The notes under the pieces: model-generated
Databases searched by the model: none
The model's input: the letters and a program-made list of their open reading frames with translations, nothing else
Told to the model about the DNA's origin: nothing
In this document: positions 7,707-37,025 of the stretch, in pieces
Layout: each line of letters starts with the position of its first letter
Numbering within the stretch: the stretch's first letter is position 1
NCBI GenBank assembly: GCA_030834095.1
Contig: JAURGA010000010.1
Location: 1 to 42,105 of the forward strand
Source: Candidatus Nanopelagicales bacterium
GTDB taxonomy: Bacteria; Actinomycetota; Actinomycetes; Nanopelagicales; Nanopelagicaceae
Reading direction: 5' to 3'
DNA length: 42,105 nt
Program-made: the position numbers and the translations under genes

Positions 7707-8981
7707 ATGGATGTAACAAATAGGCAATATGCGCTCGATCTAGATGCCAAGGACCCATTGGCGAAATTCCGGGATGAATTCATAATAAATGACCCGGCAA
7801 TTTGTTACTTGGATGGAAATTCATTAGGCCGGTTGCCAAAACGAACAATCAAGGTGATCAATGATTATTTGCTTAATGATTGGGGCGCGAAAGTTGTCGA
7901 GGGCTGGAGTGATTGGATTGAAGAGCCGTTTGCAACCGGAGATCTATTGGGGCGCACAACTCTTGGCGCGGCGGCAGGACAAGTTTTAGTCACTGATACG
8001 ACATCAGTTAATTTCTACCAACTTGCTGGCGCAGCACTTGCCGCACGACCTGACCGCAAAACCATAATTATTGATGCCGCGAATTTCCCAACCGACCGCT
8101 ATATCTTGCAAGGATATGCAAAAGAACGTGGATTAAATCTAGTCATCATCAACAATGAAGATACTGCGATTTCGCAGCACGAGCGAATCACTCCAGAAAT
8201 TCTAGAAAAATACCTGAGTGAAGATGTTGCCTTCGTAACTTTTGAAGTTATTCAATATCGGGCAGGTGCTCGCAATGATGTAAAGGCGCTAACTGATGTT
8301 GCCCGAAAATATGGCGCATTTACTATTTGGGATTGCAGTCATGCAATTGGTGCTATTGATCTGCAATTTGATAAAGATGGTGTTGATCTGGCAGTTGGTT
8401 GCACATATAAATTTGGGTTCTCTGGTCCAGGTTCTCCTGGTTGGTTATATGTTTCCAAGCGAGTGCAGAACGAATTGCAAGTTCCAATTCAAGGCTGGCA
8501 TGCCCAAGAAAATATGTTTGATATGGGACCAATATTTAAGAAAGCTGAAGGTTTAGCTGGTTTTCAAATCGCAACGCCTTCCATAATTGCGCTTCGTTCT
8601 GTGCAATCTTCATTTGGAATTATTGAAGAAGCTGGAATTAAAAATATAGAGGCAAAATGCGCAGCAGGAACTCAGATGATGATTGATCTTTATGATGCCT
8701 GGCTTGCCGATCTTGGATTTACTTTAAATACTCCAAGAGAAGCAAAATGGCGGGGTGGCCACGTTTCATTGGTTCATCCTGATGGTAAGCAAATTGCATT
8801 TGCGCTTCGCCAATTAGCGAATGTGATTCCAGATTATCGTGCGCCGAACTCAGTTAGATTAGCGATTTCACCACTTCAGAACTCTTATGCTGAAATCTGG
8901 GATGGTTTTTCAAGGCTAAAAGATTTAGTTGCCTCGGGAGATTACAAAAAGATTTCGAATACCAATTCAAAAGTAACGTAA
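7707..8981 (+). CDS. kynU: Kynureninase
   Basis: PLP-dependent hydrolysis of kynurenine to anthranilate and alanine, the step that delivers anthranilate to the ring-degrading enzymes encoded downstream. The 424-residue length fits. DGNSLG is at 36-41, ANFPTDRY at 125-132, the PLP-binding Asp and His in WDCSHAIGA (Asp209, His212), and the Schiff-base lysine is Lys235 in CTYKFGFSGPGSPG, close to the family's CSYKYLNGGPG. The ATG at 7707 has no Shine-Dalgarno, and only 36 bases separate it from the divergent ABC-F gene, so a leaderless transcript is likely. The gene converges on the mutase small subunit, with abutting stops. Could act on 3-hydroxykynurenine too, but no 3-monooxygenase gene is seen here. 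Confidence 0.93.
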   Translation: MDVTNRQYALDLDAKDPLAKFRDEFIINDPAICYLDGNSLGRLPKRTIKVINDYLLNDWGAKVVEGWSDWIEEPFATGDLLGRTTLGAAAGQVLVTDTTSVNFYQLAGAALAARPDRKTIIIDAANFPTDRYILQGYAKERGLNLVIINNEDTAISQHERITPEILEKYLSEDVAFVTFEVIQYRAGARNDVKALTDVARKYGAFTIWDCSHAIGAIDLQFDKDGVDLAVGCTYKFGFSGPGSPGWLYVSKRVQNELQVPIQGWHAQENMFDMGPIFKKAEGLAGFQIATPSIIALRSVQSSFGIIEEAGIKNIEAKCAAGTQMMIDLYDAWLADLGFTLNTPREAKWRGGHVSLVHPDGKQIAFALRQLANVIPDYRAPNSVRLAISPLQNSYAEIWDGFSRLKDLVASGDYKKISNTNSKVT

Positions 8982-9398
8982 TTAAGCGCGGGCTGTTACC
9001 GCGTTTTGCAGCCAAGAAATTATGTCTGCGGTTGGTGTTCCAGGTGTAAAGATTTCACCAACGCCCATTTCCTTGAGTGCTAACTTGTCAGCTTCAGGAA
9101 TAATTCCGCCGCCAAAAACAACAATATTTTCTGCCTTGTTATCCTTCAAGAGTTTCATAATGCGATCAAAAATTGTCATATGTGCGCCAGAAAGAATCGA
9201 AAGTCCGATAGCTTGAACATCTTCTTGAATTGCTGTTGCAATTATCTGTTCTGGACTCTGATGAAGGCCGGTGTAAATAACTTCAAATCCAGCATCGCGC
9301 AACGCACGGGCAACAACCTTTGCTCCCCGGTCATGTCCATCTAGACCAGGTTTTGCGACTACTACGCGAATCGGAACTGATTGGGATATTTCAGCCAT
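8982..9398 (-). CDS. Cobalamin-binding small subunit of acyl-CoA mutase
   Basis: Carries adenosylcobalamin for the split mutase whose large subunit is encoded at 11776-13269. The 138 residues are one B12-binding Rossmann domain: the base-off ligand motif DGHDRG with cobalt-binding His22, SILSGAH near 67-73, and FGGGIIP at 95-101. The SGAH form is that of IcmB/HcmB-type small subunits rather than the AAGH of fused methylmalonyl-CoA mutases (from memory). ATG at 9398 is preferred; GTG at 9404 would add two residues. It is divergent from meaB, with 42 bases between. Large and small subunit genes are separated and on different transcripts, which is unusual but not unknown. Confidence 0.92.
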
Positions 9399-9440
9399 GG
9401 GCACAACTTATCACGAGAAATATGTCATAAGGTTTGGCAT

Positions 9441-10187
9441 ATGAGCCAGAGCGATCACACCGAACTCCTTAGCCAAGTTCGCAACAGAGACCGACAGGCG
9501 TTAGCGAAGGCAATTACGATTATTGAGAACTCGGGCCAGCCATTCGAAATTGAAGATAAAGCTGGGGCGCAAGTAATCGGAATAACCGGTGCGCCCGGAG
9601 TTGGAAAATCAACCACAGTTGATGCGCTAGTTAACTTATTAAGAGAGCGAAACTTTTCAGTTGCAGTTCTTGCAGTAGATCCATCTTCACCGATATCAGG
9701 CGGCGCACTTCTTGGTGATCGAATTAGATTGACCGATCACTTCACTGATCCAGGTGTGTTTATCCGTTCACTTGCAACGCGTGGCCACCTTGGTGGACTT
9801 TCAGTTAGCACAAAAGCCGTATTGAAATTGGTGCAGAGCGCAAAATTTGATTTCATAATTGTTGAAACTGTTGGTGTAGGACAGAGCGAAGTTGAAGTTA
9901 TGCGAGTTGTTGACACCGTAGTAGTAGTTCTCGCTCCTGGAATGGGAGATGGGATACAGGCATCTAAGGCCGGCCTACTTGAAATCGGTGACATCTATTT
10001 AATTAATAAATCAGATCGCGAGGGGGCAAAGGAGACTGCAGCAGATATCGAGCGTTCGATTTCAATGTCGATGCCTAAAACAGTTGCAGGAAAGCCTTGG
10101 ATGCCACCAGTATTGCTTGGTGCAATGCAGAACGGAACTGGGGTAAGTGAACTCATGGCTGAAATCGAGAAACATAGAAATGGCTAG
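9441..10187 (+). CDS. meaB: MeaB-family GTPase chaperone of the B12 mutase, short form
   Basis: G3E GTPase that loads and protects the adenosylcobalamin cofactor of acyl-CoA mutases. Walker A GITGAPGVGKST is at 47-58, the VDPSSP and DRIRL segments near 79-96, the switch motif ETVGVGQSE at 142-150 and NKSD at 189-192. The protein is 248 residues, while MeaB proteins are usually about 310-330; it stops just after the SELMAEIEKHR helix, so the C-terminal dimerisation arm appears absent. The ATG at 9441 gives the best N terminus; upstream codons lie in the promoter region shared with the mutase small subunit. The anthranilate ligase gene follows after 2 bases, tying B12 chaperone and aromatic activation into one transcript. 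Confidence 0.93.
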   Translation: MSQSDHTELLSQVRNRDRQALAKAITIIENSGQPFEIEDKAGAQVIGITGAPGVGKSTTVDALVNLLRERNFSVAVLAVDPSSPISGGALLGDRIRLTDHFTDPGVFIRSLATRGHLGGLSVSTKAVLKLVQSAKFDFIIVETVGVGQSEVEVMRVVDTVVVVLAPGMGDGIQASKAGLLEIGDIYLINKSDREGAKETAADIERSISMSMPKTVAGKPWMPPVLLGAMQNGTGVSELMAEIEKHRNG

Positions 10188-10189
10188 TA

Positions 10190-11779
10190 ATGGTTAAAAG
10201 CGCTCACATAGATTCCTTTGCCACAGATAATCTTCCAGATAAATCTCTCTGGCCAGAATTAATCTTGAGCCATCCAGCGGCAACTTATCCAGAGCAATTA
10301 AATGCAAGTTACGAATTATTGGAGAGAACAATTGAATTAGTTGGCCGAGATAAATCAGCCATAATTGCTGCTGACGGTAACTTTACTTACGGCGAACTTC
10401 TTGATTTAGTAAATAGAATTTCAAATTATCTACTCGTACAAGGTGTAGTTCCAGGAAACCGGGTTGCGATTCGTAGCCCAAATAATGCGATTGCGGTTGC
10501 AATCTGGCTGGCAATTCTAAGAGTTGGTGCCATTGCGGTTACTACCATTCCACTGCAACGTGCAGTCGAATTAGCGAAGATTGTTGAAATTGGCCAGATT
10601 CAATATGCACTAGTCGATCACAGATTTGTTGAAGAGTGGCAGGCAATTCCTAACTATTCCGGAAAAACTTTTATTGTTGGTGGCGGAAGTGATTTTGATG
10701 TTGATATAGCGAAGCAAAGTGCTGAATTCAAAGTCTGTGAAACTGCAGCGGATGATGTCAGTCTCTTTGCATTTACATCTGGCTCAACCGGAGTGCCAAA
10801 AGCTACAATGCATTTTCACCGAGATATCTTGACCATTGCTGATACCTTCTCAAAGAACGTTGTTAAGCCAACAAAAGATGATGTCTTTGCTGGCAGCCCA
10901 CCGATTGCATTTACATTTGGTTTAGGTGGTTTAGTTGTATTCCCACTTCGAGTCGGAGCAACAACTGTTCTATTAGAGAACGCAGCGCCACCAGTTCTGT
11001 TAGAGAAGATTTCTGAATATAAAATCTCAATTCTTTTCACTGCTCCAACTGCATACCGAGCAATGCTTCCCCAGCTTGAGGGTAAAGACGTTTCATCTCT
11101 GCGTCGATGTGTTTCTGCTGGCGAACACCTACCACTTGCAACTTGGCGCGCTTGGTTTGATGCAACTGGAAATAAATTAATTGATGGCATCGGTGCAACA
11201 GAATTACTGCATATCTTTATATCGGCAAGTGATCACGAAATTATTCCGGGACTTACTGGAAAGCCGGTTCCTGGGTATCAAGCAATGGTCGTTGATGAAA
11301 ATTTTGTAGAAGTAAAAGATGGCGAACAAGGATTTCTCGCAGTTAAGGGCCCGACTGGCTGCCGCTATCTAAATGATGCCAGGCAGAAGGATTATGTCGT
11401 TAAGGGCTGGAATTTAACTGGTGATATTTATACCCGGACCCCAGAGGGCTATTTTAAATATGAATCCCGCGCTGATGACATGATTATTTCAAGTGGTTAC
11501 AACATTGCGGCACCTGAGGTAGAGAATGCCCTGCTTATGCATAATGCAGTAGCCGAAGTTGCAGTAGTTGGTCTGCCAGATGAAGAGCGTGGAATGGTTG
11601 TTACTGCGTATGTTGTTCTTCGAGCAGAATTTATTACATCTGATGCTATGGCCAAAGAATTACAAGATCATGTTAAGAATCAAATTGCACCGTATAAATA
11701 CCCAAGATCAATACATTTTGTTGATTCCCTACCAAAAACAACTACCGGAAAGTTGCAGCGCTTCAGATTAAAGAGCTAA
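10190..11779 (+). CDS. abmG: 2-aminobenzoate (anthranilate)-CoA ligase
   Basis: ATP-dependent (AMP-forming) activation of anthranilate to 2-aminobenzoyl-CoA. The 529-residue protein starts with the HIDSFATDNLPDKSLWPEL type of opening, followed by YPEQLNA, seen in 2-aminobenzoate/benzoate-CoA ligases. The phosphate-binding core TSGSTGVPKA is at 196-205, the GATELLHIF A5 motif near 336, the ESRADDMIISSGYNI A8 hinge near 438, and the catalytic lysine is in KTTTGKLQRF near the C terminus. The start is ATG at 10190, 2 bases after meaB. It converges on the mutase large subunit with 4 bases shared. Symbol by analogy to the Aromatoleum evansii anthranilate cluster. A related benzoate or salicylate ligase is the alternative; the neighbouring kynureninase favours anthranilate. 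Confidence 0.87.
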   Translation: MVKSAHIDSFATDNLPDKSLWPELILSHPAATYPEQLNASYELLERTIELVGRDKSAIIAADGNFTYGELLDLVNRISNYLLVQGVVPGNRVAIRSPNNAIAVAIWLAILRVGAIAVTTIPLQRAVELAKIVEIGQIQYALVDHRFVEEWQAIPNYSGKTFIVGGGSDFDVDIAKQSAEFKVCETAADDVSLFAFTSGSTGVPKATMHFHRDILTIADTFSKNVVKPTKDDVFAGSPPIAFTFGLGGLVVFPLRVGATTVLLENAAPPVLLEKISEYKISILFTAPTAYRAMLPQLEGKDVSSLRRCVSAGEHLPLATWRAWFDATGNKLIDGIGATELLHIFISASDHEIIPGLTGKPVPGYQAMVVDENFVEVKDGEQGFLAVKGPTGCRYLNDARQKDYVVKGWNLTGDIYTRTPEGYFKYESRADDMIISSGYNIAAPEVENALLMHNAVAEVAVVGLPDEERGMVVTAYVVLRAEFITSDAMAKELQDHVKNQIAPYKYPRSIHFVDSLPKTTTGKLQRFRLKS

Positions 11780-13269
11780 AAAATCTTTGTCGGCTGCCAT
11801 TTTCCATAGACTTTACGCAACTCATTCACAATTTCACCAACAGTTGCATAAGCCTTAATTGCTTCAACCGTTGCTGGAACCACGTTATCGCCAGCCTTTG
11901 CAACTACGAGTAAATTCTCAAGCGCAGCTTTGACTACGTTGTTATCTCGATTTGCACGAACTGCTTGAACAGCAGCTACCTGTTCGGATTCGCTCTTTGG
12001 ATTAATCTCAAATGGTTTGATTGGGGCTGATTCAGATTGGAAGGCGTTTACACCAACAACTTTTCTGGCTCCGGATTCAATTGCCATCGTTAACTTATAT
12101 GAATTCTCGGAAATTTCATTTACGAAGTAACCGTTATTGATGCATTCAAGTGCACCACCACGCTTTTCAATACCCGCCAACAAATCCCAAATTTCACGCT
12201 CTAATTCATCAGTTATTCGTTCTAATTCATAACTTCCAGCAAGTGGGTCTGGGCTATCTAGAACACCAGTTTCAAAAGCAATCACTTGCTGGGTGCGAAG
12301 TGCCAGTGTCGCTGCTTCTTCGGATGGAACACCAAGTGCTTCATCAAATGCTGATACGTGCATGGTTTGAATTCCACCAAGTGCAGCAGACATCATTTCG
12401 ATTGAGGTTCTGACCACATTGTTCATTGCTTGTTGCGCAGTAAGCGATGAGCCAGCAGTAAATGCAAAGATGCGTAATTTCTCGGATGCTGGATCCTTGG
12501 TTCCATATTTTTCACGCATCAACTTTGCCCAGACTCTGCGGGCAGCGCGGAATTTTGCAATTTCGGGTAGGAAGTCAATATTTGAAGATAGAAATGTAAA
12601 TAGGGTTGGGGCAACGAAATCTACGGAAACCCCGCGAGCGATTGCTTTATCTAAATACTCACGAGCATTTGCAAAGGTAAATGCAACTTCTTGCACCGCA
12701 TTAGAGCCAGCTTCGCGGATGTGATATCCAGACATTGCAAGAGAAACCCACTTAGGAATCTTGGTTGCAATATGTTCGATTACATCAACAGAGAGCTTTA
12801 GGCCAGCTTCAGCCGGAAAGATTTGAGTTCCGCGGGCAACATACTCTTTAAGAACATCGTTCTGAATAAACATTCCAAACTTATTTGGATTAACGTTTCG
12901 TTGTTCAGCTAGAGCAATGAACATTGCAGCCCAGATGTATCCAATTGAATTAGCAGTTGTGCGAACTTGGCTAATTTTTTCTAGTGGAATTCCATCCATC
13001 AAGATTTCAATATCTGCAAGTGAATCAATAGCAACACCAACACGACCAACTTCACCAAGTGAAAGTGGATCATCGGAATCGAGCCCCAGCTGCGTTGGAA
13101 GATCGAGTGCGACGCTAAATCCTGTTAAGCCCTGATCAAGCAACATTTTAAAGCGAGCATTTGTTTCTGCAGGAGTTCCGAAGCCACCGTATTGCCCCAT
13201 CGTCCAAACGCCAGCATCAGCATTAATGCCTCTGGTGTATGGATACTCTCCTGGTTTCTCTAAAGTCAT
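11776..13269 (-). CDS. B12-dependent acyl-CoA mutase large subunit, divergent substrate loop
   Basis: TIM-barrel catalytic subunit of a carbon-skeleton mutase of the methylmalonyl/isobutyryl/2-hydroxyisobutyryl-CoA family. Tyr27 (in GQYGGFG), Arg146 (in EYVARGT) and His183 (in SGYHIREAG) align with Tyr89, Arg207 and His244 of the Propionibacterium enzyme, residues that contact the succinyl group. The family's loop between TRG and WT, normally YPTMYRxRP-like and supplying CoA and substrate contacts, is replaced by INADAGV, three residues shorter and without its Tyr, Met and Arg; RQY has become GQY. The N terminus is also short: it begins just before PYTRG, with the previous gene's stop abutting the ATG. 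At 497 residues it lacks a B12 domain. The polar Tyr/Arg pair argues against isobutyryl-CoA; the altered loop argues against simple methylmalonyl-CoA. I propose a 4-oxoacyl-CoA substrate (see findings). Confidence 0.88.
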   Translation of the reverse strand: MTLEKPGEYPYTRGINADAGVWTMGQYGGFGTPAETNARFKMLLDQGLTGFSVALDLPTQLGLDSDDPLSLGEVGRVGVAIDSLADIEILMDGIPLEKISQVRTTANSIGYIWAAMFIALAEQRNVNPNKFGMFIQNDVLKEYVARGTQIFPAEAGLKLSVDVIEHIATKIPKWVSLAMSGYHIREAGSNAVQEVAFTFANAREYLDKAIARGVSVDFVAPTLFTFLSSNIDFLPEIAKFRAARRVWAKLMREKYGTKDPASEKLRIFAFTAGSSLTAQQAMNNVVRTSIEMMSAALGGIQTMHVSAFDEALGVPSEEAATLALRTQQVIAFETGVLDSPDPLAGSYELERITDELEREIWDLLAGIEKRGGALECINNGYFVNEISENSYKLTMAIESGARKVVGVNAFQSESAPIKPFEINPKSESEQVAAVQAVRANRDNNVVKAALENLLVVAKAGDNVVPATVEAIKAYATVGEIVNELRKVYGKWQPTKIF

Positions 13270-14829
13270 TTACTTTCCTTCAGCTTCGAGTTGTTGCTTC
13301 AAAACCTTCTTTGCAATCTTGCCTGTTGAATTCAGTGGGAATTCAGCAACAATGCGAAGATCTTTTGGCTTCTTGTATGAGGCCATTCTAGATTTGCAGT
13401 GATCAAGAATGCGAGTTGTAAGTTCAGCATGATCAACGGTCGTATTTGGAACCAAGGTCACCATTGCAGTTACGCGTTGGCCCCATTCGACATCATGAAT
13501 TCCCATAACCGCGACTTCTAAGACTTCTGGAATTTCAGCAATAACATCTTCGATTTCGCGTGGATAGATGTTGTAACCACCACTGATAATCATGTCGCCC
13601 TTGCGATCAACCAAATACAAGCGATTATCTTCATCAATTCGACCTAGGTCACCGGTGTGCAACCAGCCATCACGAACGGCCTTGGTAACTGTTGCATCTT
13701 GGCCAGCGGCTCCGTAATAACCGCGCATTACGTGATCGCCACGAGTTATAACTTCACCAATTTCACCAACCGGAACTTCTTTACCATTTTCATCAACAAT
13801 AAGAATTTCAACACCAACACATGGATTACCCGCACTAGTAAGTAGTTCTGGATTTTGTGACAAGCCAAGTGCGTGATCAGCTTCGCTTAGAACAGTAACT
13901 GGCGGAATCGCTTCAACCAGGCCGTAATACTGAACCATCTTTGTTGTTATTTTTTCATGGCATTGCTTGATTTGATCTGGTGGCATTGGGGCACCGGCAT
14001 AGCCAAGCATCCGCAAATTAGCCATTTTCTCTTTAGTAATTCCATCTACGGCAAGAAGTCGGGCAACCATGGTTGGGACAAGTGCTGTTGCATTGCCGCC
14101 GCGGTTTTGGATTACATCGATGAATTCTTCTGGATCGTATTTAGCAAGAACAATCTGCTTTGCACCAAAAGTAAAGTATGGAAGAACAAAGAGACCGCTG
14201 GTATGTGTTACTGGACCAGCGTGAACCCAACAATCAGTTTCATTTGGGATACGACCAAAAATATCAGTGATGATGTTGTTCAAACTTGCAGTGCGGTTGC
14301 GATGAGTTCTGATTGCACCTTTTGGGTTTCCTGTTGTTCCTGAAGAATAGTTGAGAGACACAAAACTATCTGGATCAACTGCGGTAGAAAATGCGTGGGA
14401 TTCTTGTTTAGCTAAGAAGGCTTCGTAAGGCGTTGTTCCATCGTGTTCGCCGTGAATCAAAATAATGTGATCAACTAATTCACGAACGGGAGCTGATTCA
14501 TCCCAAAACTTTGCATCCATAATCAAAACTTTGGCACCACAGTCATTTGTAATTCTTACCCAGTCATTTGGGTGCAGGCGATAATTCAGAGCAACACGAC
14601 ACAATCCTGCTGTGCTGATTCCTAAATCTGTTTCGATATAAGTGCGCTGATTTGATTGAAGATCTAGAACGCGATCTCCAGGTGCTAAGCCAAGTGCTTT
14701 TAATCCACGTGCGAGTTGAAAAATACGAGAGCCGATTTCACCATATGTCATCGCGCCTTCTGAACTCTCAACCGCAATTCGATCCCGATACTTTCGAGTT
14801 GATCTAGCTACAAGGGTTCCGACGTCCAT
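13270..14829 (-). CDS. AMP-forming acyl-CoA ligase, substrate unknown
   Basis: Class I adenylate-forming enzyme of 519 residues that activates a carboxylic acid to its CoA thioester. The phosphate loop YSSGTTGNPKG is at 161-171, the A5 motif YYGLVEAIPP near 335, the A8 hinge DRKGDMIISGGYNIYPREIE near 410, and the C-terminal catalytic lysine in LNSTGKIAKK. ATG at 14829 overlaps the preceding gene's stop by one base (TAATG), so I choose it over an in-frame start 60 bases upstream inside that gene. The mutase large subunit follows with no gap. It is clearly different from the anthranilate ligase. In this operon it may re-activate a ring-cleavage acid lost by thioester hydrolysis. Confidence 0.88.
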   Translation of the reverse strand: MDVGTLVARSTRKYRDRIAVESSEGAMTYGEIGSRIFQLARGLKALGLAPGDRVLDLQSNQRTYIETDLGISTAGLCRVALNYRLHPNDWVRITNDCGAKVLIMDAKFWDESAPVRELVDHIILIHGEHDGTTPYEAFLAKQESHAFSTAVDPDSFVSLNYSSGTTGNPKGAIRTHRNRTASLNNIITDIFGRIPNETDCWVHAGPVTHTSGLFVLPYFTFGAKQIVLAKYDPEEFIDVIQNRGGNATALVPTMVARLLAVDGITKEKMANLRMLGYAGAPMPPDQIKQCHEKITTKMVQYYGLVEAIPPVTVLSEADHALGLSQNPELLTSAGNPCVGVEILIVDENGKEVPVGEIGEVITRGDHVMRGYYGAAGQDATVTKAVRDGWLHTGDLGRIDEDNRLYLVDRKGDMIISGGYNIYPREIEDVIAEIPEVLEVAVMGIHDVEWGQRVTAMVTLVPNTTVDHAELTTRILDHCKSRMASYKKPKDLRIVAEFPLNSTGKIAKKVLKQQLEAEGK

Positions 14830-16919
14830 TAGTGCATGCTCCGTTCCGAAGTTTTTGCTGGTGGTGAATAAGCGCTGTCGAGCACCCAAGCACCTTCTGG
14901 CAAAACTGTTAAGGGGTTCATGTCTAACTCACAACCATTGGGCCAATCAATAACTGCATCGGTGATTCTAAGCACAGTGTCAACAAATGCCTCTCGGTTG
15001 CTGGCAGCAGCACCACGAACTCCCAAGAAGAGAATCGCGAGTCTGGTCTCATCGATCATTTCATTCACAATTTTTGAATCGACCGGAAGTAGGCGAACTG
15101 CAACATCAGAAATCACTTCAGTTAAAATTCCACCGACACCAATTGTCAGAACTTTTCCAAGAGAACTAGATGTAATTCCAACAAGAGTTTCTACGCCCTT
15201 TGGCACAAAAGTTTCAACTAAAACTTTATTACTTACGTTCTTATCTGATCCAAGTTGTGAGAGTCTCTTATAGGTTTCGCCGGCAGTATCAGCGCTGATA
15301 TCTAGCGCTACTCCACCTGCTTCACTTTTGTGCAATAAACCAGGAATGACCGCTTTCATTACTGACCGGCCACCAACTTTTGCAACAGCTGCGATAGCTT
15401 CATCAAGATTATCTACAACTACTGAAAGCGGAACCGGAACTCCGACCGATGCAAGCGCGCTCTTTAATTGATCTTCGGTCGCTTGATCTGCTGGCGTTGG
15501 AAGTGGATTGCAAATTGGTTTGCGTGTAACGCTATGGGCTGGTTTTGTCGCAATTCGCAGAGTTTGTAGTGCCCGAACTGCACGTTCTGGAGTTGGGAAT
15601 ACTGCAAGCTTTGCGGCTCTAAATAATTTATCTGCCTCTGGTGCCAAACTTTGTGAACCGGTTCGCGCAACAACAACTGGAATTTCACGAACCCCACGAA
15701 CTGCACTTAATGCATTGGCGATTCGTTCAACATCATTTCCAACTAGAACACAGAACGTCGCGACAATTGCATCAACTTCGGGATCTTTAGCAAGAACTTC
15801 AACACACTTCTCAAATAGATCTGGTGCCGACATAACAGCAGCGGTTACATCCACTGGGTTAGCAGTATTTCCATAGCTTGGAACGATCTGGTCTAAAGCT
15901 TCAGTGGTTTTCGCAGAGAGCTTGGCCAGAGTTAAGCCAAATTTTTCAAGCGCATCCGTGCCAAGAATTCCACTTCCACCTGATGTTGTAATAATTGCAA
16001 CGCGATTACCGGTCATCGAAACTTTACTTGCAAAGATACTTCCAGCATCAAGTAGATGTTCGACATCATCGACTCGAACTGCGCCGGATGAATTAATAGC
16101 GGCATCGATTACACGATCTTCGGTGGCCAGCGCGCCAGTATGTGAAGCTGCAGCTTCTGCACCTGCTGCCGACCTGCCCGATTTCAAAATAGCTGTTGGT
16201 TTTTTCTTTGCGATTTCGCGGAGTGCTTTGACATCAGCGAGGGATTCGGCATACATCAAGATTGCATCGACGTTTTTATCATCGGCCAACTCTGCGGCAA
16301 CTTCTAAAGCGGTTACATCTGCTTCATTTCCAGTCGTAACAACAAATCCAATTGGCAAACTTCTATCAACTGCAAGCGAGTAAATTCCGTAGCCCAGTGC
16401 ACCAGATTGGCTTACTAAAGCAATATTTCCACCTTCGAGTGGAGTTGTTGGTCCAGAGAAAACTGGTGAGAATGTTGCAGCTAATTTACTTGCACCACCA
16501 GCAGAACCAATGCAGTTTGGTCCTACCAAACGCATTCCAGATTTCTTTGCTATCGCCAATAGTTCATCTTGCGCGATTGCTCCAGCTTCATCAGCCTCTG
16601 CAAAACCTGATGACATAACAATTGCAACGCCAACTTTTGCATCAGCACAATCTTGAACTGCTTCCTTAACAAAATTAGCAGGAACCATAATCAAAGCTAG
16701 TTCGATATTTTTATTAATATCTTTAACGTTTTCAAATGCTTTTAGCCCAAGAATATTTCCGCCTTTAGGATTTACCGGAAATATTTCACCGGCATACCCA
16801 TATCTTTGTAGATACTCCAATGGCAATCTGCCCATTGCGCCAACCCGTTCAGTCGCGCCAATAATCGCTACTGACTTTGCTGACCAGAGTGCGGAAATCG
16901 AATTACTCAAGCTTTTCAA
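14829..16919 (-). CDS. ADP-forming acyl-CoA synthetase, fused alpha-beta
   Basis: NDP-forming acyl-CoA synthetase that reversibly links thioester and ATP via a phosphohistidine. Domain order over 696 residues: CoA-binding domain (about 8-130, with IIGATERVGAMG), the two ligase domains (about 150-450) containing the SHTGALA motif with the candidate phosphorylated His260, then an ATP-grasp domain (about 475-690, with KAVIPGLLHKSEAGGV). The start appears to be TTG at 16919, sharing four bases (TTGA) with the Rid gene's stop; no ATG or GTG lies before the conserved SAKSVAIIGA segment. Such enzymes act on acetyl-, propionyl- or aryl-type CoA esters; the substrate here is unknown. It could conserve energy from, or re-activate, an acid intermediate of the island. 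Confidence 0.88.
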   Translation of the reverse strand: MKSLSNSISALWSAKSVAIIGATERVGAMGRLPLEYLQRYGYAGEIFPVNPKGGNILGLKAFENVKDINKNIELALIMVPANFVKEAVQDCADAKVGVAIVMSSGFAEADEAGAIAQDELLAIAKKSGMRLVGPNCIGSAGGASKLAATFSPVFSGPTTPLEGGNIALVSQSGALGYGIYSLAVDRSLPIGFVVTTGNEADVTALEVAAELADDKNVDAILMYAESLADVKALREIAKKKPTAILKSGRSAAGAEAAASHTGALATEDRVIDAAINSSGAVRVDDVEHLLDAGSIFASKVSMTGNRVAIITTSGGSGILGTDALEKFGLTLAKLSAKTTEALDQIVPSYGNTANPVDVTAAVMSAPDLFEKCVEVLAKDPEVDAIVATFCVLVGNDVERIANALSAVRGVREIPVVVARTGSQSLAPEADKLFRAAKLAVFPTPERAVRALQTLRIATKPAHSVTRKPICNPLPTPADQATEDQLKSALASVGVPVPLSVVVDNLDEAIAAVAKVGGRSVMKAVIPGLLHKSEAGGVALDISADTAGETYKRLSQLGSDKNVSNKVLVETFVPKGVETLVGITSSSLGKVLTIGVGGILTEVISDVAVRLLPVDSKIVNEMIDETRLAILFLGVRGAAASNREAFVDTVLRITDAVIDWPNGCELDMNPLTVLPEGAWVLDSAYSPPAKTSERSMH

Positions 16920-17311
16920 AGGTTCGCAAACCCTTCAATCTCTAGAAGTGCTTCAGCGTCCCAGAGTCGAGTCACTCCAACAAGTGTCATTGCTGGAAAA
17001 TTCTTACCTATTAATCGTTGCCAAATTTTCCCAATTTCGCGGGAATTTGCCCGGTAATCAGCAGGATCAACAGAATAAATATTTAACTTAACTAAGTTGT
17101 CTGGTGTTCCGCCTGCTGCGCTAAGGGCGGTAAGAAGATTTGTAATAACTTTCTCGAATTGTTCAACGATTCCGTTTCCTTCAATCACGCCCTCTTTATT
17201 AAGTGCGGTCTGGCCAGCGAGGAACACTAAAGTTCCGCCTTCGACAACAACAGCGTGTGAAAAACCAATTGCTGGAGCCAGGCTCTCTGGATTTATCTTC
17301 TTTGCTGCCAT
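16916..17311 (-). CDS. Rid (YjgF/YER057c) family protein lacking the deaminase arginine
   Basis: Small trimer-forming protein of the Rid family, 131 residues. RidA proteins hydrolyse enamines and imines; the essential arginine in their PAR(S/T) motif is Met108 here (FPAMTLVGVTRLWD), so the canonical RidA mechanism is not assured. The C-terminal EIEGFA matches the family's EIEAIA. An AAGGAG ribosome site lies 8 bases before the ATG, inside the end of the upstream SDR gene. The product of the aminobenzoyl-CoA oxygenase/reductase is an enamine, so a Rid protein in the same operon is chemically apt, but its activity must be shown. PAM-type members are common in actinobacteria (from memory) and may act on other substrates. 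Confidence 0.85.
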   Translation of the reverse strand: MAAKKINPESLAPAIGFSHAVVVEGGTLVFLAGQTALNKEGVIEGNGIVEQFEKVITNLLTALSAAGGTPDNLVKLNIYSVDPADYRANSREIGKIWQRLIGKNFPAMTLVGVTRLWDAEALLEIEGFANL

Positions 17312-17313: not shown

Positions 17314-18063
17314 TTATTCTCCTTTAAGAATTTCTGCTTGGCCGGTTATGTTGGGTAAATCGATAAAAGCAATTGCAGCCTTAGCCACTTCTTTTGGAGT
17401 TAAGAATCTTCCACTGGGCTGCTTAGCTTCTAGGGCGGCTTTAACTTCATTGAAATCTTTTCCGGTTCGTTCAGCAGCTGCTTCTAATGATCGCTTTGTC
17501 ATTGGAGTATCTACATAGCTTGGACAAACCGCATTTACGGTAATTCCATGCTTTGCTAATTCCGCTGCCGCAGCTCTCACTAATCCAATTACGCCATGCT
17601 TTGCGGCGGTATACGCTGAAACATTTGGTTCACCGATTAATCCTGCAGAACTTGCTATAACAATTATGCGCCCGAATTTTGCCTCTTTCATCGCTGGCAC
17701 AGCAGCACGCAAATATTGAAATGGCGCAGTCAAGTTAATTGCAATCGAGTGCTCCCAAACTTCATTAGAGGTTTTATCAATTGGAGCAGCACTACCGTCT
17801 CCGGCATTTAAAATTAGAACATCAATTCCGCCCCAGGCCGAAATAATCTTTTCGAGTGCGATATTCGCACTCTTTGAATCCGTGACATCTGCGGGAATGA
17901 TCAAATTTTTATTTGTTCGCCCAGCGACTATCGCCTCTAAATCCTGTGCTGTTCTGGCGGTTAACGCGACGCTGTGACCAGCATCTAACAATTGAGTTGC
18001 AATAGCTTCACCGATTCCACGACTTGCACCGGTAACCAGAACTCGGAGCGGGGTGTTGCTCAT
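17314..18063 (-). CDS. Short-chain dehydrogenase/reductase
   Basis: NAD(P)-dependent oxidoreductase of 249 residues. TGASRGIG, the cofactor loop, is at 11-18, NAG near 91-93, the catalytic serine in IASSAG, and YTAAK with the catalytic Tyr and Lys near 151-155. The C terminus (TGQAEILKGE) departs from the usual GQxLxVDGG. The ATG at 18063 has GGAGA 6 bases upstream; longer in-frame starts run into the divergent thiolase promoter. It leads a five-gene run: SDR, Rid, ADP-forming synthetase, AMP ligase, mutase large subunit. A likely job is oxidation or reduction at the ring C5 oxygen of the de-aromatised CoA ester, or of a ring-opened product; not proven. Confidence 0.88.
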   Translation of the reverse strand: MSNTPLRVLVTGASRGIGEAIATQLLDAGHSVALTARTAQDLEAIVAGRTNKNLIIPADVTDSKSANIALEKIISAWGGIDVLILNAGDGSAAPIDKTSNEVWEHSIAINLTAPFQYLRAAVPAMKEAKFGRIIVIASSAGLIGEPNVSAYTAAKHGVIGLVRAAAAELAKHGITVNAVCPSYVDTPMTKRSLEAAAERTGKDFNEVKAALEAKQPSGRFLTPKEVAKAAIAFIDLPNITGQAEILKGE

Positions 18064-18125
18064 GAATTCTCCGATCATCTGAAAATCACAGTGAAAAAGG
18101 TAGTTACGTATTTCTTCCGATAGGC

Positions 18126-28187: not shown

Positions 28188-28961
28188 ATGGCAAATCTAA
28201 ATGCCTTAGCAAATGATCTTGTATCAGGAGCAGTTCAGGTTCTTGACCTAACAGCACCACTACATTCGAAGACACCTATTTTGGTTCTTCCAGAACCATT
28301 CGGCCAGACCGCATCATTTCAATTAGAAGAAATTTCTAAGTATGACGATCGTGGTCCAGCTTGGTATTGGAATAACTTCCATACAGGTGAACACACCGGA
28401 ACTCACTTAGATGCTCCTAACCACTGGATTACCGGAAAAGATGGCGACGATGTTGCTTCGATTCCACCACAACGTTTAGTTGGTCCTGCGGTTGTTCTAG
28501 ATTTTGTTAAAGAAGCAGAAGCAAATCCTGATTTCCTCCTTGAAGTTTCACATATCGAAGCTTGGGAAAAAGTAAATGGTCAAATTCCAAAGGGTGCTTG
28601 GGTTCTATTCCGCACTGGTTGGTCAAAGTTTGGTGATGATCCAAAGGCATTTGCTAACGCAGATGAGAATGGACCACACACACCAGGACTTCCACCAGCA
28701 TGTGCTGAGTTCCTTGCAACAAAGCGCGACATCCTTGGATTAGGTGTTGAAACAGTTGGTATCGATGCTGGTGGCGCATTTGGAATGGAAGTTCCATTCC
28801 CTTGCCACAACTACCTACTTGGAAATAACAAGTACGGCCTAACTCAACTTCGCAACCTAGATAAGTTGCCAACAACTGGTGCAATTGTTATTGCTGCGCC
28901 ACTAAAGATTGTTGGTGGTTCAGGTTCACCTACAAGAGTCTTTGCTCTAGTTTCAAAGTAA
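28188..28961 (+). CDS. kynB: Cyclase-family metal hydrolase, probable kynurenine formamidase
   Basis: Member of the cyclase family (PF04199 fold), 257 residues. The metal-binding motif HTGTHLDAPNH is at 69-79, with the two histidines and aspartate in order, and VGIDAGGAFG follows near 190. The family includes bacterial kynurenine formamidase (KynB), isatin hydrolase and others. Hydrolysis of N-formylkynurenine to kynurenine and formate is the missing step between the kynA and kynU products in this island, so KynB is the best assignment, though typical KynB is about 210 residues with HxGAHxDAPxH. Isatin hydrolase is the main alternative and would also give an anthranilate precursor. AAGGAG ends 7 bases before the ATG. 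A strong terminator follows. Confidence 0.75.
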   Translation: MANLNALANDLVSGAVQVLDLTAPLHSKTPILVLPEPFGQTASFQLEEISKYDDRGPAWYWNNFHTGEHTGTHLDAPNHWITGKDGDDVASIPPQRLVGPAVVLDFVKEAEANPDFLLEVSHIEAWEKVNGQIPKGAWVLFRTGWSKFGDDPKAFANADENGPHTPGLPPACAEFLATKRDILGLGVETVGIDAGGAFGMEVPFPCHNYLLGNNKYGLTQLRNLDKLPTTGAIVIAAPLKIVGGSGSPTRVFALVSK

Positions 28962-32623: not shown

Positions 32624-33502
32624 GTGGTGAGCATATTTGCAGGTGAAGCGAAAGATTTAATTGACCGTGCTAATCGGCCGCAATCTTTAATCATCACAAT
32701 TTATGGCGCATACAGCCGCTCTCTTGGTGGCTGGCTCTCTTCAAGTGCGATTGTTAGCCTCTGCGCCGAATTAGATGTTGATGAAGCATCCGTCCGAAGT
32801 GCGTTATCAAGATTCAAACGCCGCGGCATCTTAATTTCTAAATCGCAAAACGGAGTTCAAGGCTATGCGTTAAGCACAGAAGCTAGAAAAACATTCGAGC
32901 TTGGTGATTCACGTGTTCTAGAACGACGCGAGGCCCCACGCGATGAAGGTTGGGTGCTAGTTGCATTTTCGATTCCGGAGAAGAATCGAGCGCTTAGATA
33001 TCAATTGCGATCAAGGTTAATTCGTGTGGGATTTGCTCAGGTCACTGGTGGACTTTGGATCGCACCGCGCCAATTAACCGCTGATGTTACGGCGCTAGCC
33101 AAAGCGCTGAATATTGAAAAATACATGAGCATTTTCTCAGCACACCACTTAGCGTTTCAGCCAACACCAAATGCTGTAAGCCAGTGGTGGGATTTAGATG
33201 GAATCAGCTCTCTATATAAATCATTTAGCACAACCGCGCGACCAGTTATGAAAAAGTGGTTTACCAAGAAGATTTCAAAACCTGATCCACTCGAAGCTTT
33301 TGTTGATTACACAAAAGTTTTAACGAATTGGCGACATGTTCCTTACTTTGACCCGGGACTTCCTAAGGAATATTTACCCAAGAATTGGCCCGGCTTTGCA
33401 GCAATGGATAGCTTCTTTAAAGTTCACGACTTACTTGCCATCCCTGCCCTTAACTACTTTCATAGCATTGCGGGCAAGGCGGAAGTTAAAAAGAAGAAGT
33501 AA
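32624..33502 (+). CDS. PaaX-family transcriptional regulator
   Basis: Regulator of 292 residues of the PaaX family, which represses aromatic catabolism genes and is released by an aryl-CoA such as phenylacetyl-CoA. The N-terminal winged helix (about 18-90) opens with PQSLIITIYGAYSRSLGGWLSS and includes the VRSALSRFKRRGIL recognition region; the central Cas2-like domain begins near DEGWVLVAFSIPEKNR (107-122); the C-terminal PaaX domain covers the rest. Start is GTG at 32624, followed by a second GTG; no ribosome site. It is the only transcription factor I recognise in the window, so it is the candidate reader of the TTGAC-N4-GTCAA repeats. Its own promoter has none. Confidence 0.9.
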   Translation: MVSIFAGEAKDLIDRANRPQSLIITIYGAYSRSLGGWLSSSAIVSLCAELDVDEASVRSALSRFKRRGILISKSQNGVQGYALSTEARKTFELGDSRVLERREAPRDEGWVLVAFSIPEKNRALRYQLRSRLIRVGFAQVTGGLWIAPRQLTADVTALAKALNIEKYMSIFSAHHLAFQPTPNAVSQWWDLDGISSLYKSFSTTARPVMKKWFTKKISKPDPLEAFVDYTKVLTNWRHVPYFDPGLPKEYLPKNWPGFAAMDSFFKVHDLLAIPALNYFHSIAGKAEVKKKK

Positions 33503-34972
33503 TTACTTAGCTTTGTAATCTTTATTTACGTATAGATCAACGTATTCATTCACGGCCATTTGAGATAACTTCTTATAGTCCATAGAGACATCAAGAATTT
33601 TCTTCTGTTGGTCAGCGCTGAAAATACGAGCCAAGTTAATCTTGAATTTTTCGATAAGTAGCGGAATTCCATCAGTTCTGCGGCGAGCATGTCCGATTGG
33701 ATATTCGACAACTACTTCATCGAACTTACTACCGTCTTTGAATTCAACAGTTAGAGCATTGGCGATAGAGCGCTTACTTGGATCATGATAATCAACAGTA
33801 AATGCCGGATCTTCAACGCAAACGATTTTTTCACGGAGCGCATCAATTGCTGGATCTGCAGCGATGTCATCTTCGTAATCACGTGCAGTTAGACGACCAA
33901 AGATAAGTGGAACTGCGACCATGTATTGAATACAGTGATCGCGATCTGCTGGGTTTCCGAGCGGACCTTTCTTATCGATAATCCGAATACAAGCTTCGTG
34001 AGTTCTTATTTTTACACTCGCAATGTCGGCAGCAGTTTTTCCTGCAGCTTTCATAAGGCCATTAATTGTCATTGCTGCTTCAACTGCAGTTTGTGAATGG
34101 AACTCAGCAGGGAATGAAATCTTGAAGAGAATGTTCTCCATTACATATGAACCGTATGTGCGTTGGAACTTAAAAGAATTTCCGCGGAAGAGTGAGTCGT
34201 AGAAGCCCCAAACTTTTGCGGTTAGAACTGATGGATAACCCATTTCGCCAGTCTGTGCAATCAGAGCAAGTCGAACTGCGCGTGATGTTGCATCACCGGC
34301 GGCCCAGGATTTACGAGATCCAGCGTTAGGAAAATGACGGTATGTGCGAAGTGCTTGACCATCAACCCAAGCAAGTGAGACCGCATTTAAAGTCTGCTCG
34401 CGCGTTAAACCAAGCATCTTTGCAACAACAGCTGTTGACGCCACCTTTACAAGAATTACGTGATCGAGTCCAACTTTATTAAATGAGTTTTCGAGTGCAA
34501 TACAACCTTGAATTTCGTGGGCCTTAATCATCGCAGTTAAAACATCATGGACCTTTAGAGGTGGTCGGCCAGATGCAACCGCAGCACGTGAAAGCCAATC
34601 AGCAGTCGCAAGAATTCCGCCCAAGTTATCTGAAGGGTGGCCCCATTCAGCTGCTAGCCAAGTGTCATTGAAATCTAGCCAGCGAATCATGGCGCCAATG
34701 TTGAATGCGCCCTGAACTGGATCTAATTCATAGTTGGTTCCTGGAACTCGAACACCGTTTGTAACAGTTGTTCCTGGAACTAGTGGTCCAAGTAATTTCT
34801 TACATTCATCATATTCAAGTGCTTCAAGTCCACAGCCCAGAGTGTCTAGTAAGCAATTCCATGCGGTTTCATAAGCAACTTCAGATTTAATCTCGTAATT
34901 GTCGACGTAATCAACAATATCAATTATTTCTTTATCGAATTCTTGTTTTACCTTTGTGATATTTGATGACAC
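33503..34972 (-). CDS. prpD: 2-methylcitrate dehydratase (MmgE/PrpD family)
   Basis: Dehydrates 2-methylcitrate to 2-methyl-cis-aconitate in the methylcitrate cycle. The 489-residue length and the segments LLDTLGCGLEAL (28-39), GAMIRWLDFNDTW, WGHPSDNLGGILATADWLSR and LALIAQTGEMGYPSVLTAKVWG follow the MmgE/PrpD family. GTG at 34972 has an AGGG site upstream and lies 8 bases after prpC. Last gene of prpB-prpC-prpD; its stop abuts that of paaX. No acnD/prpF pair is seen, consistent with PrpD carrying out the step. Confidence 0.92.
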   Translation of the reverse strand: MSSNITKVKQEFDKEIIDIVDYVDNYEIKSEVAYETAWNCLLDTLGCGLEALEYDECKKLLGPLVPGTTVTNGVRVPGTNYELDPVQGAFNIGAMIRWLDFNDTWLAAEWGHPSDNLGGILATADWLSRAAVASGRPPLKVHDVLTAMIKAHEIQGCIALENSFNKVGLDHVILVKVASTAVVAKMLGLTREQTLNAVSLAWVDGQALRTYRHFPNAGSRKSWAAGDATSRAVRLALIAQTGEMGYPSVLTAKVWGFYDSLFRGNSFKFQRTYGSYVMENILFKISFPAEFHSQTAVEAAMTINGLMKAAGKTAADIASVKIRTHEACIRIIDKKGPLGNPADRDHCIQYMVAVPLIFGRLTARDYEDDIAADPAIDALREKIVCVEDPAFTVDYHDPSKRSIANALTVEFKDGSKFDEVVVEYPIGHARRRTDGIPLLIEKFKINLARIFSADQQKKILDVSMDYKKLSQMAVNEYVDLYVNKDYKAK

Positions 34973-34980
34973 GTATGACC

Positions 34981-36132
34981 CTATCTTTTCTCTATTGGCA
35001 CGAATTCCAGATCTTCTGGGCCCGTGTAATCCGCACTTGGGCGAATAATTTTATTGTCGATTCGTTGTTCGATCACATGTGCTGACCAACCAGTTGTGCG
35101 AGCAATCACGAATATTGGAGTAAAGAAAGCTGTTGGGATTCCCATGGTTTGATACGCAACTGCCGAGAACCAATCTAGATTTGGAAACATCTTTTTAGCA
35201 TCCCACATAACAGATTCGATTCGTTCTGCAATGTCATAAAGTTTTAAATCTCCCGCGGTCGTGCTTAGTCCATGTGCGACAGATTTAATGACAACATTTC
35301 GTGGATCTGAAATTGTATAAACCGGGTGACCGAAACCAATTACAACTTCTTTACGTTCAACTCGGGCCCGAATATCTTTCTCAGCTTCATCTGGGTTTGA
35401 ATATCGCTCTTGAATTTCAAGTGCTACTTCATTAGCGCCACCATGCTTTGGTCCACGAAGTGCACCAATTGCGCCGGTGATTGCAGCAAAGATATCGGAG
35501 CCAGTTCCAGCAATTACGCGTCCGGTAAAGGTTGAAGCATTGAATTCGTGCTCGGCATAAAGAATAAGTGAGACATGCATTGCCTTGACCCATTCATCAC
35601 TTGGCGCTTTGCCGTGCAACATATGCAAGAAATGTCCACCAACAGAATCATCATCGGTCTCTACTTCGATTTGCTTGCCACTATTCGCAAAGTGATACCA
35701 GTAAAGAAGCATTGAACCAAAGGATGCGACGAGACGATCTGCGATTTCTTTCGCTTCCTCTGGAGTATGAACTAGAGATTCTGGGGCATCGCAGCCGAGT
35801 GCCGAAACACCAGTGCGCATAACATCCATTGGGTGCGCAGTTTTAGGTAGTGCTTCTAAAACTTTCTTCACGGTATTTGGTAATCCACGAAGTGACTTCA
35901 ACTTTGTTTTGTAAGCAGCAAGTTCGCTCTTGTTTGGCAACTTTCCATGAATTAAGAGAAAGGCGACCTCTTCAAATTCGCACTTTGCAGCTAAATCAAG
36001 AATGTCATAACCACGGTAATGAAGATCGTTTCCGCTCTTACCAACAGAGCAGAGAGCGGTGGATCCTGCAGTCACACCTGAAAGTGCGACGGACTTCTTT
36101 GGCTTAAATTCAATCTTTGGTGAATCGCTCAT
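34981..36132 (-). CDS. prpC: 2-methylcitrate synthase
   Basis: Condenses propionyl-CoA with oxaloacetate. The 383 residues begin with the family's [28 protein letters not shown]-like segment and [16 protein letters not shown], which distinguish methylcitrate synthases from ordinary type I citrate synthases. Catalytic residues are visible: His in GPKHGGANE, His in GFGHPVY, and Asp in LDWFSAV. Some activity with acetyl-CoA is usual. The ATG overlaps the prpB stop by one base (TAATG), so translation is coupled. Confidence 0.94.
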
Positions 36133-37025
36133 TATTTCTTTTCGTCTCCATTACCTAGTAACTTATCTAGTGCACCTTCGTATTCATAATAATTAATTCT
36201 TTGATAAAGCTCTTCGCGAGTCTGCATAGTGTCTAAAACTGCTTTTTGTGAACCATCTTTGCGAACAGTTGCGTAAACGTTCTCTGCTGCTTTATTCATG
36301 GCACGGAAAGCTGAAAGTGGATAAAGAACAATCCCAACACCGACACTGGCAAGTTCTGTGGTTGTGAAAAGAGGTGTCATTCCAAATTCTGTGATGTTGG
36401 CAAGAACCGGAACTTTAATTACATCAGTGAATTTTTTGTAGGTTGGAAGATCGGTAATTGCTTCAGGGAAAAGCGCATCCGCACCAGCTTCGATGTATGC
36501 ATTGGCTCTATCGAGTGCTGCGTCAATTCCTTCAACTGCGAGCGCATCGGTACGGGCCATAATTACGAATGAATCATCTACTCGAGCATCAACCGCTGCT
36601 TTAATGCGATCTACCATTTCCGCTTTACTTACTAATTCTTTATTTGGTCGGTGTCCGCAACGCTTTGCTCCAACTTGATCTTCGATATGAATTGCCGCGG
36701 CGCCTGCTTTATTTATAGAACGCACAGAGCGCGCAATATTGAAAGCTGATGCGCCAAAGCCGGTATCAATATCTACAAGAAGTGGGGTATCGCAAACATC
36801 TGTTATTCGGCGAACATCAACCAAGACATCTTCTAAACCAGTAATTCCTAAATCTGGAATACCGAGTGAACCTGCTGCAACACCGCCACCAGAAAGATAG
36901 ATTGCTTTAAAGCCTGCTCGTTTCGCTAGCAGTGCGTGATTAGCATTTATTGTTCCAATTACCTGGAGCGGAGATTCTTCAGTAAGGGCTTTACGAAAAC
37001 TGGCGCCTGCACTGGTCTGGCTCAT
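36132..37025 (-). CDS. prpB: 2-methylisocitrate lyase
   Basis: Splits 2-methylisocitrate into pyruvate and succinate, the last step of the methylcitrate cycle. The 297 residues show the isocitrate-lyase superfamily features: YLSGGG near 43-48, VDIDTGFG at 84-91 for metal binding, and KRCGHRP at 121-127 with the catalytic Cys123. First gene of prpBCD, with 104 bases upstream that hold an operator copy. The second half of the cycle, hydration of methylaconitate by aconitase, is presumably encoded elsewhere. Confidence 0.95.

Follow-up and report, generated by a model that had tools for sequence, protein, structure and literature searches.

The DNA stretch analyzed in this study, referred to as the window, comprises 42,105 nucleotides (contig JAURGA010000010.1, positions 1 to 42,105) and comes from a freshwater actinobacterium of the acI type (Nanopelagicales), whose streamlined genome measures 1.36 Mb. 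The genes considered here are as follows:

7707..8981, + strand: kynureninase (family profile match)
8982..9404, - strand: mutS, B12-binding small subunit (PF02310, DGHDRG motif)
9381..10187, + strand: MeaB-type GTPase, mutase chaperone (family match)
10190..11779, + strand: benzoate-CoA-ligase-family enzyme, candidate anthranilate-CoA ligase (family match)
11776..13269, - strand: mutL, divergent B12 mutase large subunit (MM_CoA_mutase, PF01642, E 7e-171)
13270..14889, - strand: acs, AMP-forming acyl-CoA ligase, proposed for 2-methyl-3-oxoadipate or another free acid
14829..16919, - strand: acd, NDP-forming acyl-CoA ligase, proposed either to liberate CoA from 4-oxopimeloyl-CoA, gaining ATP, or to serve in acid activation
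16916..17311, - strand: ridA, RidA-family protein
17314..18138, - strand: SDR1, a relative (37-40%) of the classical ABM-cluster SDR
18139..19320, + strand: thl, PcaF-like thiolase, proposed to cleave 2-methyl-3-oxoadipyl-CoA (nearest relatives, 3-oxoadipyl-CoA thiolases)
19330..20133, + strand: badI, BadI/MenB-like hydrolase, proposed ring opener
20130..20840, - strand: short TDO-like protein, candidate tryptophan 2,3-dioxygenase (weak score)
20859..21671, - strand: SDR2, divergent, adjoining ABM
21780..24176, + strand: ABM, fused monooxygenase/old-yellow-enzyme reductase of the aminobenzoyl-CoA/salicylyl-CoA type (NF006101)
24173..27923, - strand: iorB-iorA-like 2-oxoacid oxidoreductase, ABM-linked in relatives
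28188..28961, + strand: PF04199 KynB-type cyclase, candidate kynurenine formamidase
32624..33502, + strand: PaaX-type regulator that recurs next to the block
33503..37025, - strand: prpD, prpC, and prpB of the methylcitrate cycle, proposed propionyl-CoA sink

All of the genes named in the original prediction, which had read this region as a route from tryptophan to propionyl-CoA and succinyl-CoA, were found between 7707 and 37025 with family support. Neither an acyl-CoA dehydrogenase nor an ordinary enoyl-CoA hydratase nor a propionyl-CoA carboxylase was found within the window. Since two acyl-CoA dehydrogenases and one carboxyltransferase are encoded elsewhere in the same genome, the route can be called beta-oxidation-free with respect to the cluster but not to the cell. 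The genome encodes a single mutase large subunit.

The kynureninase matched its profile over the full length with 236.4 bits (curated cut-off, 246.4). The match of the TDO-like protein was weak, with 133 bits falling under the curated TDO cut-off of 390.7; both TDO segments align to a solved TDO. The ABM fusion scored 1351 bits against NF006101 (cut-off, 1078), a family model named for salicylyl-CoA, and its two halves corresponded to VioD-like and OYE structures in a PDB search. Salicylyl-CoA could also serve as the substrate of ABM, but the kyn genes argue for one that derives from anthranilate. The BadI-like hydrolase reached 310 bits, under the curated badI cut-off of 467.6. Scores against MenB models were slightly higher (327-353 bits) and also under cut-off. 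The MenB of this genome is a separate gene on another contig, 49% identical to the BadI-like hydrolase.

The RidA-family protein is the obvious candidate for a deaminase, a role missed in the original prediction. In the members compared, it contains PAM at the position where canonical RidA has its catalytic arginine (PAR motif), and PxM is likewise present in the RidA proteins of Limnohabitans and Arthrobacter ABM clusters. The missing arginine counts against the proposed deamination. The predicted loss of ammonia is in agreement with C7H8O4-CoA, which occurs in Arthrobacter only in anthranilate-grown cells (PMC3534580).

The gene order badI-thl-(sdr1)-ridA-acd-acs-mutL is kept in almost all of the approximately 45 loci of sufficient length, and the AMP-forming ligase gene immediately precedes mutL in nearly all loci. 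Among 151 genomes of the family, mutL is present in 28 and ABM in 27, with both occurring in 23 (Fisher P = 1.7e-18); mutL and the BadI ortholog occur together in 24 (Fisher P = 1.2e-20). Where ABM or BadI was found without mutL, the contigs examined stop before or inside the block. A full ABM was present in 30 of 34 further mutL genomes, BadI orthologs (67-100%) track the block, and prpBCD was linked in four relatives checked. In actinobacterial genomes of 6.5 Mb, a span of about 50 kb holds the three segments mutL-acs-acd, abl-sdr2-abm-cyc, and badI-thl-sdr1-ridA. The association of mutase, ABM, and BadI is far above chance, and the co-occurrence of this mutase subtype with ABM genes, as originally predicted, is strong and extends to these larger genomes.

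Both mutase subunits were recognized by their family profiles (mutS, PF02310, E 7e-28), and the B12 motif DxHxxG of mutS corresponds to D22-x-H24-x-x-G27. The fold of mutL superimposes on 4r3u and 1req with a TM-score of about 0.84; the AlphaFold model of the mutase is mediocre (pLDDT, 71). In methylmalonyl-CoA mutase (MCM) numbering, given in parentheses, mutL keeps Y27 (Y89), Q136 (Q197), R146 (R207), and H183 (H244), together with E186 and E310. In MMUT, CoA threads a channel, and Arg228, equivalent to Arg207, forms a salt bridge with a substrate analogue (PMC10356863). Comparison of 46 subtype members with 34 ordinary mutases revealed that Arg207 and His244 are kept in 46 of 46 and Tyr89 in all 45 that have this region of the alignment. 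The CoA side is altered: loop 75-82 is deleted, and mutL carries G25, R103, F134, V175, T222, F224, F268, and F270. The corresponding changes R87G, S164R (a new arginine), T195F, R283T, S285F, H328F, and Q330F, as well as the altered 75-82 loop, are found in all or nearly all of the 46 members, whereas the original residues are conserved in the 34 ordinary mutases, with single exceptions at positions 283 and 285. We provisionally take the replaced positions to be CoA-tunnel contacts on the basis of alignment, strand position, and the contacts known for MCM. The subtype forms its own clade (support, 100/100) apart from ordinary MCM and seems to represent a branch of B12 mutases without earlier description, in which the CoA tunnel appears to be lost.

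No methylmalonyl-CoA epimerase was found in this genome. Among 15 mutase/ABM genomes tested, an epimerase scored above cut-off in 5, only those that also hold an ordinary MCM, and the latter is a second gene in genomes having both mutase types. This pattern, together with the linkage of prpBCD, is consistent with propionyl-CoA as a product. Taken together, the separate clade, the co-occurrence with ABM and BadI, and the epimerase pattern lend strong circumstantial support to the predicted skeleton, in which 2,5-dioxocyclohexanecarboxyl-CoA would be converted via a 4-oxopimeloyl unit and a 2-methyl-3-oxoadipyl unit to propionyl-CoA and succinyl-CoA. The original interpretation is partly supported; we differ from it on the mutase substrate.

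With the CoA tunnel apparently lost, a small free acid, 4-oxopimelate, rather than a CoA ester is probably rearranged. We therefore favor, tentatively, a lower pathway of anthranilate that would proceed via free 4-oxopimelate and the B12 mutase to propionyl-CoA and succinyl-CoA. The gene identities, their linkage, the co-occurrence, and the residue changes are observed, whereas each reaction, the sequence in which CoA is released and the acid re-activated, and the position given to Arg103 are deduced. In this scheme, tryptophan would be converted to anthranilate by the TDO-like, KynB-type, and KynU enzymes, and anthranilate would be activated to 2-aminobenzoyl-CoA. From the product that ABM would form, the RidA-family protein would subsequently take off ammonia to give 2,5-dioxocyclohexanecarboxyl-CoA, which the BadI ortholog would open to 4-oxopimeloyl-CoA. 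CoA could be released either by the NDP-forming ligase operating in reverse or by a thioesterase. In free 4-oxopimelate, the mutase would then transfer the ketone acyl group on C3 to C2, forming 2-methyl-3-oxoadipate. This acid would be converted to its CoA ester by the AMP ligase and cleaved by the PcaF-like thiolase into succinyl-CoA and propionyl-CoA, the latter entering prpBCD. Within the mutase site, Arg146 and Tyr27 are predicted to hold one carboxylate and His183 and Gln136 the ketone, while the new Arg103 may bind the far carboxylate in the plugged CoA tunnel. The route as drawn gives no step to SDR1, SDR2, IorAB, or the CrtO-like pair. Free 2-methyl-3-oxoadipate is a beta-keto acid and prone to decarboxylation, which counts against a free-acid route. 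A literature search for pathways involving 4-oxopimelate or 2-methyl-3-oxoadipyl-CoA found none.

In the original prediction, the mutase acts on 4-oxopimeloyl-CoA, the thioester group migrates, and the thiolase follows directly. Evidence from linkage and co-occurrence fits this version equally. Its CoA ester would come straight from BadI, so that release and re-activation are unneeded, and to our knowledge the characterized MCM/ICM/HCM relatives, the B12 acyl mutases of this fold, all use CoA esters. However, the residues replaced in mutL are those on the CoA side and not those on the acyl side, the reverse of what a longer-acyl CoA ester would predict, and the two ligases beside mutL would be left without a clear task. 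Thioester migration consequently fits the mutase poorly, and we consider it unlikely. Free 4-oxopimelate, activated after rearrangement, appears to fit better, because the carboxylate- and carbonyl-side residues are kept and those of the CoA tunnel are replaced.

The substrate of the mutase might also be a different acid of the pathway, free or bound to CoA, such as a reduced C7 acid, with an SDR subsequently oxidizing 2-methyl-3-hydroxyadipyl-CoA. SDR1 would suit this role, as it lies within the block, resembles 3-hydroxyacyl/3-hydroxybutyrate dehydrogenase-like SDRs, and counts the SDR of classical ABM clusters among its relatives. It is missing, however, from several relatives in which the block is otherwise complete, and the kept Tyr89 and Arg207 indicate that a carboxylate adjoins the site of migration, making this variant distinctly unlikely. 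Alternatively, the ring-opened acid could be degraded by ordinary beta-oxidation with enzymes encoded elsewhere in the genome, the mutase being unrelated. Proteobacterial ABM clusters do contain an SDR, an enoyl-CoA hydratase, and an acyl-CoA dehydrogenase, and the two acyl-CoA dehydrogenases of this genome would be available. The absence of beta-oxidation enzymes from the block and the fixed position that mutL holds there, in different genera as well as in large, distant genomes, render this classical route improbable. That mutL is an ordinary methylmalonyl-CoA (or isobutyryl- or 2-hydroxyisobutyryl-CoA) mutase, linked to aromatic genes by chance, would agree with its PF01642 match, the kept Tyr89/Arg207 pair, and the presence of MeaB but is highly improbable given its own clade, the lost CoA contacts, the lack of an above-cut-off epimerase in subtype-only relatives as well as here, and the second, ordinary MCM gene where both types occur.

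The favored free-acid rearrangement may extend beyond anthranilate. Three mutases (54-55%; genomes G368, G562, and G787) carry part of the residue signature. G368 yielded no BadI ortholog, and neither an ABM nor a BadI ortholog was present in the loci examined around the G562 and G787 mutases; on these grounds, the three were treated as a sister group. Their neighbors are a thiolase with a class III CoA-transferase, an AMP ligase, or an SCP2-type thiolase. A CoA-free substrate would account for the two CoA ligases beside the mutase and for the CoA-transferase or thiolase beside the sister genes. Somewhat more speculatively, an adenosylcobalamin-dependent clade with the MCM fold may have given up CoA, catalyzing ketone-acyl migration in a free diacid, so that 4-oxopimelate becomes 2-methyl-3-oxoadipate within a new lower pathway of anthranilate leading to propionyl-CoA and succinyl-CoA, with the sister genes beside thiolases carrying out this chemistry with other 4-oxo acids. 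Two Mucilaginibacter loci (47%) were dropped as relatives of interest, having ordinary MCM residues and no block. The idea of a plasmid-borne mobile mutase was also abandoned, as no plasmid relative above about 45% occurred among the best matches listed.

If true, the CoA-free branch would represent a new reaction class. It would also explain the fate of the carbon skeleton after ring opening in aerobic anthranilate-CoA degradation, a step that has long been vague, and would assign a defined B12-dependent use of tryptophan to the very abundant freshwater acI actinobacteria.

The mutase shares its fold, MeaB chaperone, B12 motif, and Tyr89, Arg207, His244, Gln197, and Glu370 with methylmalonyl-CoA and 2-hydroxyisobutyryl-CoA mutases (MCM and HCM), and the split into large and small subunits is that of HCM. 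Unlike members of this family, mutL has a shortened N terminus, a shortened or deleted 75-82 loop, an arginine at position 164, and lost CoA contacts; it is linked to anthranilate genes and lacks an epimerase partner. The aerobic 2-aminobenzoyl-CoA pathway was described for Azoarcus evansii (Schuhle et al. 2001, as cited in PMC4539516). This pathway and proteobacterial ABM clusters have the CoA ligase, ABM fusion, SDR, and RidA-family protein in common with the block. Downstream, Azoarcus-type and proteobacterial clusters contain an enoyl-CoA hydratase and an acyl-CoA dehydrogenase, whereas a BadI ortholog, a thiolase, two ligases, and the mutase are found here. The anthranilate genes on pAL1 of Arthrobacter sp. 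Rue61a resemble the block in ABM, an AMP ligase, a RidA without the usual arginine, and PaaX regulators, and C7H8O4-CoA has been detected there in vivo, but a thioesterase and a fumarylacetoacetate-hydrolase-type enzyme replace BadI and the mutase. BadI of Rhodopseudomonas palustris, a 2-ketocyclohexanecarboxyl-CoA hydrolase, belongs to the same sequence family and matches the proposed retro-Dieckmann ring opening, although the substrate proposed here is a 2,5-dioxo ring ester. Finally, the thiolase is of the type used in the beta-ketoadipate pathway (PcaF), where a 3-oxoadipyl unit likewise yields succinyl-CoA; the 2-methyl substrate proposed here would release propionyl-CoA instead of acetyl-CoA.

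Family scans of the window upheld the gene list and coordinates of the original prediction. The TDO-like protein scored weakly, at 133 bits where 391 are required, with both TDO segments aligning; kynureninase fell slightly below its cut-off, and the thioesterase was a weak match (E 2e-6). The genome carrying the window (contig C17) comprises 1.36 Mb and is 98% complete. Its only MM_CoA_mutase is the large subunit of the divergent B12 mutase, mutL (11776-13269, minus strand). It encodes one carboxyltransferase and two acyl-CoA dehydrogenases, both outside the window, and a search of the genome for methylmalonyl-CoA epimerase found none. At 38431-39627, a cysteine-desulfurase/kynureninase-like PLP enzyme adjoins an aldo/keto reductase with a C-terminal RidA domain fusion (39633-41090). 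The nearest matches were freshwater MAGs of Nanopelagicales (acI); several of the public MAGs (L003, L010, L020, L022, and L036) bear the record title Bifidobacterium breve but are clearly acI-type actinobacteria.

Relatives of the mutase were found at 47 loci, those with at least 69% identity all being from Nanopelagicales-type actinobacteria. Around them, the order BadI-like hydrolase (badI), PcaF-like thiolase (thl), an SDR (sdr1) that several relatives lack, ridA, NDP-forming ligase (acd), AMP ligase (acs), and mutL is near-invariant. The small subunit gene mutS and meaB lie near this block at many loci, and prpBCD adjoins it in four genomes (G138, G050, G053, and G055). Among 151 family genomes, the mutase subtype occurred in 28, the full fused monooxygenase/old-yellow-enzyme reductase (ABM) in 27, and the BadI ortholog in 27, with pairwise overlaps of 23, 24, and 24 genomes (Fisher test, 1e-18 or better, uncorrected for phylogeny, though occurrence is patchy inside genera). 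The subtype tracks the ABM genes as originally predicted. In the cases lacking mutL that we examined (G008, G132, G035, G023, and G020), contigs stop before or within the block. Full ABM was present in 30 of the 34 genomes reached via other loci. Class-level sampling yielded mutase relatives of 62 to 67% identity in actinobacteria of 1.9 to 6.6 Mb, five of which carry a BadI ortholog (67 to 70%) separate from MenB-like genes. In G354, the candidate anthranilate-CoA ligase, a second SDR, ABM, and the KynB-type cyclase are followed by acd-acs-mutL and then by badI-thl-sdr1-ridA and the regulator paaX, all within about 50 kb.

Two other gene pairs recur in these neighborhoods. IorB/IorA-like 2-oxoacid oxidoreductase genes (24173-27923 in the window) lie next to ABM in several relatives (L051, L065, L068, L138, L140, and L143). 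Next to badI or the cyclase gene, two divergent flavoproteins resembling CrtO/phytoene desaturase occur repeatedly as a pair (window 29006-32190; L020 2-3152; L137).

The mutase subtype is distinct from ordinary methylmalonyl-CoA mutase. Among the 15 genomes tested that carry the subtype or ABM, epimerase exceeded the cut-off only in G005, G010, G025, G032, and G008, exactly those that also have an ordinary mutase (45 to 48%); the ten subtype-only genomes had no epimerase above the cut-off, with weak matches in some. In a tree, the subtype and three sisters share a branch of length 0.84 that has 100/100 support, and Foldseek placed the mutL model next to HCM and MCM. We compared 46 subtype members with 34 ordinary mutases, ten of which carry the Phe/Gln pair of the ICM type (P. 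freudenreichii numbering). Tyr89, Gln197, Arg207, His244, Glu247, and Glu370 are kept in the subtype (one row lacks the first columns). It has exchanged Arg87 for Gly, Ser164 for Arg, Thr195 for Phe, Asn236 for Val, Arg283 for Thr, and Ser285, His328, and Gln330 for Phe, with single members deviating (Thr at 236, Ser at 283, and Tyr at 285), and loop 75-82 is missing. In the 34 ordinary mutases these sites are conserved, apart from one deviation each at 236, 283, and 285. In human MMUT, the CoA runs through a channel of this domain, and a salt bridge links Arg228 (equivalent to Arg207) to the substrate analogue (PMC10356863); Tyr110, His265, and Arg228 touch the substrate (PMC11988910). Since acyl-pole residues are kept and CoA-side residues replaced, the subtype, as read from its sequence, has retained the acyl pole and rebuilt the CoA side. 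In the predicted mutL model (mean pLDDT 71), residues 103, 134, 224, 268, and 270 lie on barrel strands and may face the barrel interior.

The sister mutases keep different company. That of G562 adjoins a thiolase and a class III CoA-transferase, that of G787 an AMP ligase, and that of G368 (L086 190-4054) a small subunit and an SCP2-type thiolase; the last has loop 75-82 and Lys at 283. The G562 sister may belong to a further pathway that combines a mutase with a thiolase, as its gene run (L135 2063-15558) encodes the CoA-transferase, thiolase, enoyl-CoA hydratase, biotin carboxylase, an MmdA-like carboxyltransferase, an AtuA-like protein, and subunits of hydantoinase/caprolactamase type.

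In the proposed pathway, deamination would precede ring opening. This fits a finding in Arthrobacter Rue61a, in which a CoA ester whose acid has the formula C7H8O4, as does cyclohexanedione-carboxylic acid, was seen solely during growth on anthranilate (PMC3534580). ABM could instead act on salicylyl-CoA, giving the identical dione without deamination, but RidA and the kyn genes favor anthranilate. The catalytic Arg typical of RidA is absent from the RidA protein of the block and from those of other ABM clusters, which suggests a dedicated RidA subfamily.

From carboxylate to carbonyl, succinyl-CoA (-OOC-CH2-CH2-CO-S-CoA) and 4-oxopimelate (-OOC-CH2-CH2-CO-CH2-CH2-COO-) are alike. With the carboxylate/carbonyl pocket kept, the tunnel apparently closed, and an Arg added there, free 4-oxopimelate fits as the putative mutase substrate. 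The mutase would shift its ketone acyl group to give 2-methyl-3-oxoadipate, which would be activated and split by the PcaF-like thiolase to propionyl-CoA and succinyl-CoA. This would be the skeleton originally predicted, which was there reached by migration of the thioester group. A free-acid step would also give both ligases a task: one may free CoA with a gain of ATP and the other re-activate the product. The literature searched, of partial coverage, made no mention of 4-oxopimelate as a catabolite or of 2-methyl-3-oxoadipyl-CoA.

Known ABM systems differ in their downstream genes. Proteobacterial clusters hold an SDR, enoyl-CoA hydratase, acyl-CoA dehydrogenase, ligase, and RidA. The anthranilate genes of Arthrobacter pAL1 (L149 17137-24050) encode RidA, an FAH-type hydrolase, thioesterase, ligase, and ABM; with the thioesterase and FAH-type hydrolase, they represent a third version of the steps downstream of ABM. 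Judged by gene content, the mutase-type cluster would be a third solution beside the proteobacterial and pAL1 clusters.
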